Shown here: positions 18,261 to 25,989 of the stretch, in pieces
How the letters are laid out: every line of letters begins with the position of its first letter
How positions within the stretch are numbered: position 1 is the first letter of the stretch
Assembly (NCBI GenBank): GCA_026706485.1
Contig: JAPOYR010000012.1
Span: 1 to 64,000, forward strand
DNA length: 64,000 nt
Direction: 5' to 3'
Source: Chloroflexota bacterium
GTDB taxonomy: Bacteria; Chloroflexota; UBA11872
The notes under the pieces: model-generated
Databases searched by the model: none
The model's input: the letters and a program-made list of their open reading frames with translations, nothing else
Told to the model about the DNA's origin: nothing
Program-made: the position numbers and the translations under genes

Positions 18261-18349
18261 CCCTAGCTACCGGCGTGCGCGCGAGCCGCGCGTCGTGCGA
18301 GGATGGAGTCGCACGCAGGAATCATGACCCACATCGGCGGGAGTGCAAC

Positions 18350-18601
18350 ATGTCGCATGGCGCCCGAGTCTCCATCGAATACTGCAGTCAATGAAACTAT
18401 CTCCCCAGAGCCGTCCGTGCGACGGAGGAGATTCTGACCGAGTTCGCGAGCGACGTGGCCGAGTGGACGCTGATTCCTTCCGGCGGCGGCGTGTTTGAGG
18501 TGATGGTTAACGATCAGCTCGTCTTTTCCAAGCGCGAGTTAAAGCGGCACGCCAAGCCCGGCGAGATCTATCCGCTGGTCGCCGAGGCGCTGGCGGGGTA
18601 G
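18350..18601 (+). CDS. SelW/Rdx-family selenoprotein (in-frame UGA = Sec15)
   Basis: An 83-residue thioredoxin-like protein that a standard caller would miss, because codon 15 is TGA (18392-18394). It reads MSHGARVSIEYCSQ, then TGA, then NYLPRAVRATEEILTEF. The rest is AEWTLIPSGGGVFEVMVN and LVFSKRELKRHAKPGE, ending in TAG. This matches the SelT/SelW/SelH (Rdx) family, in which a CxxC or CxxU redox motif follows the first strand and the core reads GGxFEVxVxGxxVxSRK. The UGA falls exactly at the second Cys of CxxC. A hairpin directly after it resembles a bacterial SECIS, and selB is about 5.5 kb away. GGGAG lies about nine bases before the ATG. Probable redox role; partner unknown. Confidence 0.85.
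18400..18431 (+). promoter_or_regulatory. bSECIS-like hairpin downstream of the UGA codon
   Basis: Apical stem CCGTC (18411-18415) with GACGG (18421-18425) closes a 5-base loop CGTGC. A lower stem TCTCC (18400-18404) with GGAGA (18427-18431) lies beneath an asymmetric internal loop. The UGA ends 21 bases before the apical loop, and a G sits at the second loop position. Both features fit the accepted bacterial SECIS model, in which SelB binds the loop. Confidence 0.65.
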
Positions 18602-23191: not shown

Positions 23192-24103
23192 ATGATCGTG
23201 GCGCGCACGCGGGCCGAGTTGGCGGCGGCGCGCGTCGGGCTCCCGGATCGCGTCGGCGCCGTGCTGACCATGGGCGGCCTGCACGACGGCCACAGCGCGC
23301 TGCTGCGGGCGGCGCGCCGGGAATGCGCCTCCGTCGTGGCCACGCTGTTCGTAAATCCCAGCCAGTTCGAGAGCGAGCACGACGCCGCCGCCTATCCGAG
23401 AGACGAGGCCGCCGACTTGCGCCGGTTCGCCGCCGAGGCCGTGGACGTGGCGTTTGTCCCGCCGGTCCACGAGATCTACGCGCCGGGGTCCGCCACCCAG
23501 GTCGGTGCGGGGCGCCTCGGCACCGTGCTCGAAGGCGCCAGCCGGCCCGGCCACTTCAACGGCGTCGCCACCGTGGTCGCCCTGCTGCTCGATCTCACGC
23601 GCCCCGCACGCTCCTATTTTGGACAGAAGGATTGGCAGCAAACGTGCGTAATTCGGCAGGTCGTGGATGGTCTTGCGCTGGACGTTGAGCTGCGCGTGGT
23701 CGGCACCGTGCGTGACGACGAGGGCCTGGCATTGGGCACGCGCAACGGGCGGCTGTCGGTCGAGGGGCGGCGCGCGGCCCTGGTGCTCCACCGTGCGTTA
23801 ACGGCCGGCGCCCGGGCTTGGCGCGGCGGCGAGCGGGCGGCGGACCGCGTTGAGCGCACGATGCGGCGGGAGCTCGATACCGAACCGGGCGCCAGCGTCG
23901 ATTACGCGGTGGCGCGCGATCCCCATACGCTCAACGCCCTCCATCCCAACGCCTCATCCGTCGCGCTGCTCGTGGCCGCCTGGGTGGAAGGGGTGCGTCT
24001 GATCGACAACCTCGTCCTCGGCGACGGCCTCGTGGATATCGACCCCGCGCCGCTGCTGGCCGACGCCGCGGCTGCGACCGGCGGCGGTCCGCCCCCGCCG
24101 TGA
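23192..24103 (+). CDS. panC: Pantothenate synthetase
   Basis: A 303-residue enzyme joining pantoate and beta-alanine with ATP in coenzyme A synthesis. Motifs: LTMGGLHDGHSALLRAAR (the HIGH-like ATP site), ATLFVNPSQFE, YPRDEAADL, PGHFNGVATVV, and YFGQKDWQQ, all in family order. It departs slightly from the usual GALHEGH and SSRN (here GGLHDGH and GTRN). The ATG at 23192 starts where homology begins; upstream is antisense to glcE. Its stop overlaps the selB GTG by four bases, so the genes are coupled. No panB or panD nearby. Confidence 0.92.
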   Translation: MIVARTRAELAAARVGLPDRVGAVLTMGGLHDGHSALLRAARRECASVVATLFVNPSQFESEHDAAAYPRDEAADLRRFAAEAVDVAFVPPVHEIYAPGSATQVGAGRLGTVLEGASRPGHFNGVATVVALLLDLTRPARSYFGQKDWQQTCVIRQVVDGLALDVELRVVGTVRDDEGLALGTRNGRLSVEGRRAALVLHRALTAGARAWRGGERAADRVERTMRRELDTEPGASVDYAVARDPHTLNALHPNASSVALLVAAWVEGVRLIDNLVLGDGLVDIDPAPLLADAAAATGGGPPPP

Positions 24104-25989
24104 CGGCCGGTAGCGACGCCCCGTCCGCGGCCACGGTTGGCACCGCGGGTCACGTCGATCATGGCAAGTCGACCCTGGTACACGCGCTGACCGGCATCGA
24201 TCCGGACCGTCTCGCCGAAGAGAAGGCCCGCGGCATGACCATCGACCTGGGCTTCGCCTGGCTCACCCTGCCCAGCGGGCGTTCGGTGAGCCTGGTGGAC
24301 GTTCCGGGTCACGAGCGATTCATTCACAACATGCTGGCCGGCGTGGGTGGGATCGACGCCTGTCTGTTCGTGGTCGCCGCCGACGAAGGCGTAATGCCGC
24401 AGACGCGCGAGCACCTCGACATCGTGACGCTGCTGGGCATTGAGCGCGGAGTGGTCGCGCTGGCGAAAACGGATTTGGTCGACGAGGAGTGGCTCGAGCT
24501 TGTCGAACAGGAGGTGCGCGAAACCCTGGCGGCCAGCTCGCTGTCCCAAGCGCCCGTCGTCCCTGTCTCCGCGCGCGACGGCCGCGGACTGGACGCGCTC
24601 CTGGATGCACTGGATGCGCTTCTGGCGCAGCCGCTGTCCCGACCGCAGGTCGGTGGACCGCGACTGCCGGTGGACCGGGCCTTCACCCAGCGGGGCTTCG
24701 GCACCGTGGTGACCGGCACGCTGAACGGCGGGCCGCTGGACGTGGGCGACACGGTCCACCTGTATCCGGGCGGCGCGCGGACGCGCGTACGCGGCTTGCA
24801 GACCCATCGCGCGGCCGAGGACCGCGCCTGGCCGGGGCGGCGCGTGGCGGTGAACCTCGGCGGCGTCACGCCCGCCGACGTCCCGCGCGGCACCGTGGTC
24901 GCCGCGCCGGGCGCCGTCACCGAGACGCGACGCCTGGACGCCACGCTGCGCCTGCTGCCGTCGGCGCCGCGCGCGTTGAAGCCGGGGGAGCGCGTGTCGT
25001 GGCACTCGGGCACTGCCGAGGTCGTGGCGGCGGTGCGCTATCTGGAGGCCGACCCCGTCCAGCCGGGTGGCGCCGGCTGGGTCCAGTGGCGGCTTGGCGA
25101 GGCGGTCGCCATCCGCAAGGGCGACCCCTATGTGATCCGACGACTCTCGCCGCCGATGACCATTGGTGGCGGCGAGACCGTGCGCGCGGCGGCCCGCCAC
25201 GTGCCGCGCGGCGACCCTGCCGCGCTGGAAGCCCTCGAACGCGCTCGCCGCGCCCCGCCCGCCGAGCTTGTGGCCGCGGCGGTCGAGGCCGGCGGCCCGC
25301 TCACGCCGGCCGAGATCGCGCGCCGCACCGAGTTGAGCCTCGACCAGGTGACGGCACTGGTGGACGAAATTGAGCGCGCCGGCGGGTTGAGCGTCGTCGG
25401 CGGCTACGCGGCGCCGACCGCCGCCGTCGACGCGCTGCGCCGGCGCATTTCTGCCCTGCTATCGCCAAGCGCCACCGGCGGCCTGCCGCAGGCCGCGTTT
25501 CCCCGGCAGCTGGGAGCCCCGGCGCCCCTCGTCGCGGCGCTGCTCGAAGGCATGTCCGACGAGGGCCGGCTCGTCCTCAAGGAGGGACGAGTCTTGCCGC
25601 CAGGACAAGCGCCCGCGCCGCGCGGCCCCCAGGCCGACCGCCTGCTGGCCGCGCTGGATGAGGGCGGCTTCGCGCCGCCGGACCTGCTCGCGCTGGCGCG
25701 CTCCCACGGCGCCTCGAGCGCGCTCCTCGACGCCCTGGCGGTGGCGGGTGAACTCGTCCGCATCACGCCGACGTTCGGTCTCACCCCGGCGGGCTATTCG
25801 CGCTGGCGGCAGGCCGTTGGCGAGGCCTTTGCCGCAAGCGACCAGGTCACGGTGAAGCAGCTCCGCGACCAGTTGGGCACTAGCCGCAAGTACGTCCTGG
25901 CGTTCTTGGAGCACCTCGACGCCCGGGCCGTCACCCGCCGCGTCGGCGAAGCCCGCATCCTTCTCGACCGCAGCTGGCTGCCGGACTAG
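24100..25989 (+). CDS. selB: Selenocysteine-specific translation elongation factor SelB
   Basis: A 629-residue translational GTPase that delivers Sec-tRNA to UGA codons marked by a SECIS. The G-domain has GTAGHVDHGKSTLVHALTG, EKARGMTIDLGFA, DVPGHERFIHNM and AKTDLVD. EF-Tu-like domains 2 and 3 follow (FTQRGFGTVVTGTLNGG). Residues about 370-629 are the winged-helix repeats unique to SelB, ending KQLRDQLGTSRKYVLAFLEH and ARILLDRSWLPD. Starts at GTG 24100, overlapping the panC stop (GTGA). Its presence explains the UGA-containing gene at 18350. selA, selC and selD were not found in the window. Confidence 0.95.
   Translation: MTAGSDAPSAATVGTAGHVDHGKSTLVHALTGIDPDRLAEEKARGMTIDLGFAWLTLPSGRSVSLVDVPGHERFIHNMLAGVGGIDACLFVVAADEGVMPQTREHLDIVTLLGIERGVVALAKTDLVDEEWLELVEQEVRETLAASSLSQAPVVPVSARDGRGLDALLDALDALLAQPLSRPQVGGPRLPVDRAFTQRGFGTVVTGTLNGGPLDVGDTVHLYPGGARTRVRGLQTHRAAEDRAWPGRRVAVNLGGVTPADVPRGTVVAAPGAVTETRRLDATLRLLPSAPRALKPGERVSWHSGTAEVVAAVRYLEADPVQPGGAGWVQWRLGEAVAIRKGDPYVIRRLSPPMTIGGGETVRAAARHVPRGDPAALEALERARRAPPAELVAAAVEAGGPLTPAEIARRTELSLDQVTALVDEIERAGGLSVVGGYAAPTAAVDALRRRISALLSPSATGGLPQAAFPRQLGAPAPLVAALLEGMSDEGRLVLKEGRVLPPGQAPAPRGPQADRLLAALDEGGFAPPDLLALARSHGASSALLDALAVAGELVRITPTFGLTPAGYSRWRQAVGEAFAASDQVTVKQLRDQLGTSRKYVLAFLEHLDARAVTRRVGEARILLDRSWLPD

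Follow-up and report, generated by a model that had tools for sequence, protein, structure and literature searches.

A SelW-like gene with an in-frame UGA

The window (the whole 64,000-nt stretch of Chloroflexota DNA analysed here) carries a small SelW-like gene of the Rdx family and, further along the same strand, selB, the gene for the selenocysteine (Sec)-specific elongation factor (Table 1). A TGA at codon 15 is the sole in-frame stop of the SelW-like frame. A sequence-only reading of the DNA had described this frame as an unannotated gene with the TGA at the second Cys of the Rdx CxxC motif. Its coordinates and description proved exact when frame and translation were read. Translated with U at codon 15, the product reads MSHGARVSIEYCSQUNYLPRAVRATEEILTEFASDVAEWTLIPSGGGVFEVMVNDQLVFSKRELKRHAKPGEIYPLVAEALAG, with GGGVFEVMVN and LVFSKRELKRH in its later part. 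The UGA fills the C/U place of the C-x-x-C/U motif (YCSQ-U-NYLPRA), and alignments of relatives place it there as well. No sigma-70 promoter or terminator was matched near the gene, an Rfam search of the window found nothing, and no phage relative was found. The gene is adjoined by ftsY in this genome and at one same-genus locus, not at a sister-genus locus (L066), and its neighbourhood offers no functional clue.

Table 1. Positions of the SelW-like gene, its signals and selB in the window, with the basis of each assignment.
Feature	Position	Strand	Basis
Predicted SelW-like (Rdx) selenoprotein gene	18350..18601	+	frame, ATG at 18350 to TAG at 18599-18601 (83 codons + TAG); PF10262; NF041051; AlphaFold model vs 2fa8, 3dex, 2obk
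In-frame UGA, codon 15	18392..18394	+	sole in-frame stop in all 39 class copies; relatives in other phyla
GGGAG ribosome-binding site	18339..18343	+	6 nt 5' of ATG; GGGAG/GGAG near the same place in relatives
Bacterial-SECIS-like upper stem-loop CCGUC/GACGG	18411-18415 with 18421-18425 (18411..18425)	+	comparison of UGA-type sequences
Apical loop CGUGC of the SECIS-like hairpin	18416-18420	+	loop G 18417 invariant in 72 UGA-type sequences
Possible lower stem AUCUCC/GGAGAU	18399-18404 with 18427-18432 (18399..18432)	+	fold; kept in genus only
selB, Sec-specific elongation factor	24100..25989	+	TIGR00475, 289 bits (cut-off 242); GTP_EFTU, SelB-wing_3

Profile searches were run with the U of the protein read as Cys. 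The protein scored above the cut-offs of Pfam Rdx PF10262 (E 1.9e-20, 73.3 bits, cut-off 22.6), NCBIfam NF041051 SelTWH_Campy (93.6 bits, cut-off 88) and the CXXU_selWTH profile (57, cut-off 34.2). Alignment to Rdx profiles had been proposed as a check on an assignment to the Rdx/SelW/SelT/SelH family; the matches to PF10262 and NF041051 bear the assignment out, and among these names the bacterial SelW-like branch is the right one. A sequence search returned SAV_2001 and Atu0228 among the solved relatives. The AlphaFold model (mean pLDDT 91.4, built on 21 aligned sequences) predicts a thioredoxin-like fold for the 83-residue product, with the CxxU between strand 5-12 and helix 18-35, that is, in the loop after strand 1. 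Its top Foldseek matches were the solved SelW-related proteins 2fa8, 3dex and 2obk (best ~1.1 Å), followed by mouse SelW and thioredoxins. 2fa8 (Agrobacterium Atu0228) and 3dex (Streptomyces SAV_2001) match the predicted fold at 1.1-1.7 Å over 75-80 residues with 36-43% identity, but the window protein is ~20 residues shorter and would have Sec where these two presumably have Cys. Mammalian selenoprotein W (2npb) shares the CxxU and the thioredoxin-like fold (TM-score 0.67) at 23% identity. In contrast to eukaryotic SECIS elements, which are located in the 3' UTR, the putative SECIS of the window gene lies inside the coding region.

Conservation of the UGA and of a hairpin downstream

A SelW-like gene was found in 38 of the 41 genomes of the class, in 39 copies, each with exactly one in-frame TGA. 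In every class copy translated, this codon is the U of the YC..U motif. The same UGA occurs in Neomarinimicrobiota, Actinobacteria, Verrucomicrobia (Pedosphaera), Calditrichaceae and Proteobacteria MAGs (taxa as named in the records), and UGA-type SelW genes also occur across the phylum (at least 119 genomes of a 400-genome sample). Inspection of relatives for Cys or UGA at codon 15, a check suggested by the sequence-only reading, returned UGA and no sense codon in the class copies and in the relatives from other phyla. Chance falls far short of explaining such a pattern. No Cys replacement was seen in the SelW of the window's class (38 genomes). Cys-type homologues do exist in the phylum; those read belong to other subfamilies (YCAECGYEPQ; YC..CRW and similar), and some lie in genomes for which no SelA match was listed (G240, G170, G311 and G296), others beside SelA. 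A 2006 survey described few or no Cys homologues of SelW-like proteins in Sec-using organisms (PMC1794560).

With a within-genus dN/dS of 0.10-0.18 over codons 16-81, the codons 3' of the UGA are evidently under purifying selection. Within-genus dS was 0.09 for codons 16-29, compared with 0.40-0.52 for codons 30-81. One class genome (G016; 86% complete, 2% contamination) holds two UGA-type SelW copies, at C43:334-582 and C63:22162-22410, which may mean that the gene is duplicated or that strains are mixed in the assembly.

A SECIS-like hairpin begins 17 nt after the UGA: positions 17-21, counted from the base after the UGA, form a stem with 27-31 that is capped by a loop of five bases. Stability in single-sequence folding 3' of the UGA was not unusual (z -1.1 to +1.0), and since these z-scores are not significant, the argument for the hairpin is a comparative one. 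The comparison covered 72 distinct UGA-type and 20 distinct Cys-type sequences, including 60 further phylum loci of both types. Among these sequences, which are related to each other and whose Cys-type set comes from other subfamilies, 88.6% of pair cells were formed in the UGA-type versus 47% in the Cys-type; the hairpin is missing from the Cys-type homologues. A count on 16 hand-picked sequences was biased by their selection, and the 72-sequence count is the reliable one. Sliding the partner strand by up to 4 bases lowered pairing to 21-60%, and the closing pair 21-27 was unformed in about a quarter of the UGA-type sequences. In a scan of all column pairs, pair 18-30 ranked first for covariation; because both are third codon positions, this is hard to attribute to protein constraint.

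Loop base 23 was G, and codon +8 was NGN, in all 72 UGA-type sequences. This codon encodes Ser, Arg, Gly or Trp, and where it encodes Ser it is AGY in 32 of 32 cases, whereas elsewhere in these genes TCN (142) outnumbers AGY (70). Because the middle G is invariant and Ser is always AGY, conservation at codon +8 appears to act on the RNA and not on the protein. The possible lower stem was considered as a general feature and rejected: it holds in the genus, and its energy falls off in distant relatives.

The SECIS of E. coli fdhF has a short stem and a small apical loop holding GU, ~20 nt after the UGA. The window hairpin is likewise a short stem with a small, GU-containing loop near the UGA, but it differs in sequence and lower stem, and its loop G lies 23 nt after the UGA. 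Bacterial SECIS elements have been characterized by a conserved guanosine in a small apical loop (PMC1088965), a description that our candidate element, just 3' of the UGA and with a conserved apical-loop G, fits.

Selenocysteine machinery and further selenoprotein candidates

The presence of selB in the same window, already recognized from the sequence, was confirmed; its product combines EF-Tu-like domains with a C-terminal SelB winged-helix domain. The match to TIGR00475 falls into two blocks (3-343 and 537-579), and the unmatched middle suggests a divergent linker or winged-helix region. The sequence-only reading had made its case depend on selA, selC and selD being present in the genome. 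SelA (489.5 bits), SelD (375.5 bits) and a tRNA-Sec with UCA anticodon (70.1 bits, on the window's contig) were all found, and together with selB they reside in one genome. Among the matches listed in the 400-genome phylum sample, 118 of 119 UGA-SelW genomes (the sample holds at least 119) have SelA, versus 95.5 expected with relatedness ignored. The exception, G029, is 77% complete and has a UGA-type SelW with no selA found.

Further genes of this genome (G000) also contain in-frame UGA codons. SelD has its own near the N-terminus (GAGUACKL; C1:28817-29743, L021) and is probably itself a selenoprotein. At least six AhpC/TSA-type (peroxiredoxin-like) genes have one in-frame UGA each; in those read, the UGA falls in a U-x-x-C motif, and in four a GCUC-GUG-GAGC-type hairpin follows. 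Three of these genes lie in tandem on contig 11 (C11:506452-509605; L180, L181 and L183, within L186) after a Pro/Thr-rich stretch, each with FYRAFW-U-xxC around the UGA and, downstream, a CAGCUCGUGGAGCUG hairpin, and likely form a cluster of Sec peroxiredoxin-like proteins. Three more, with U-x-x-C, were found at C7:67409-67777 (L184), C3:51686-52069 (L185) and C4:355874-356245 (in L187). Each of the six genomes of the genus has UGA-containing AhpC/TSA-type members. With the SelW-like gene and SelD counted, this genome holds at least eight selenoprotein candidates. A formate dehydrogenase matched above its cut-off, had no in-frame stop and was dropped as a further candidate, and no AhpD/CMD relative was found in the genome.

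Decoding of the UGA and its meaning for the class

Could codon 15 be something other than a Sec codon? The gene might be dead, or the true codon might be Cys (TGC/TGT), altered by a sequencing or assembly error. The genomes compared are MAGs, any one of which might hold an error, and Cys homologues are present in the phylum. An error in a single assembly is excluded, however, because the same UGA recurs in independent class genomes and in other phyla, and both the purifying selection 3' of the UGA and the complete Sec pathway speak against a pseudogene, which makes this explanation barely credible. A genome-wide reassignment of UGA, with codon 15 a plain sense codon, would agree with a frame that is open when UGA is read as a residue. 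Yet TGA ends seven of the nine neighbouring genes checked in the window, panC, ftsY and pgk among them, and in several relatives one and the same gene carries UGA at codon 15 and closes with another UGA. Since TGA is thus a normal stop in neighbours and, in relatives, even within the same gene, its decoding is position-specific, and reassignment is next to inconceivable. By these comparisons, pseudogene, sequencing error and genome-wide reassignment are effectively excluded.

It is also very improbable that the UGA acts as a regulatory or leaky stop, yielding a 14-residue product or low near-cognate readthrough (e.g. as Trp) without Sec: the UGA sits at the family's catalytic Cys/Sec position, is followed by a conserved hairpin and co-occurs with the Sec machinery. 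Sec insertion had been judged much likelier than a broken gene from the start, and UGA conservation, purifying selection, the covarying hairpin and the complete machinery support that judgement. We regard it as almost certain that the gene encodes a functional SelW-like Rdx selenoprotein whose UGA is decoded as Sec. When the ribosome arrives at the UGA of codon 15, SelB carrying Sec-tRNA(UCA) would bind the hairpin 17-31 nt 3' of the UGA, and Sec would be inserted instead of termination. The product would be an 83-residue thioredoxin-like protein with the CxxU in the loop between first strand and first helix. From family, motif and predicted fold we infer a thiol/selenol oxidoreductase role, most likely that of a small enzyme in which Cys and Sec can join reversibly as a selenenylsulfide. 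Redox activity and, in vivo, the insertion of Sec would both be expected.

SelW-like selenoproteins are known from surveys of the Sargasso Sea, of bacterial genomes and of GOS data (PMC1088965, PMC1794560, PMC2398784). In the Sargasso Sea and GOS surveys the SelW-like CxxU proteins were the most abundant selenoprotein family (PMC1088965, PMC2398784), and a 2022 review places them under Rdx (PMC9312934). Their function in bacteria has been described as unclear (PMC1088965). For Chloroflexi, the 2006 survey listed three selenoprotein families (PMC1794560), and in the literature searched we found no report of a SelW-like selenoprotein for this Chloroflexota class. The window protein resembles bacterial SelW-like proteins (PF10262, NF041051) in length, CxxU, GG-FE and FSK motifs, predicted fold and a UGA with a putative downstream SECIS, and differs in host lineage only. 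The protein family has been known for two decades; the gene adds a clear member and not a new kind, and knowledge of the SelW family itself is unchanged.

What changes is the reading of a gene that the standard code would truncate at the UGA, and Sec use by this class becomes very probable. The related SelW SECIS elements form a large set that could be used to test how one SelB recognizes different hairpins. For the class as a whole, we think it fairly likely that Sec-SelW is kept strictly, that the SECIS loop dictates the residue at +8 from Sec, limited to Ser, Arg, Gly and Trp since a G is required as the middle base, and that there is maybe a sizeable, little-described redox selenoproteome.
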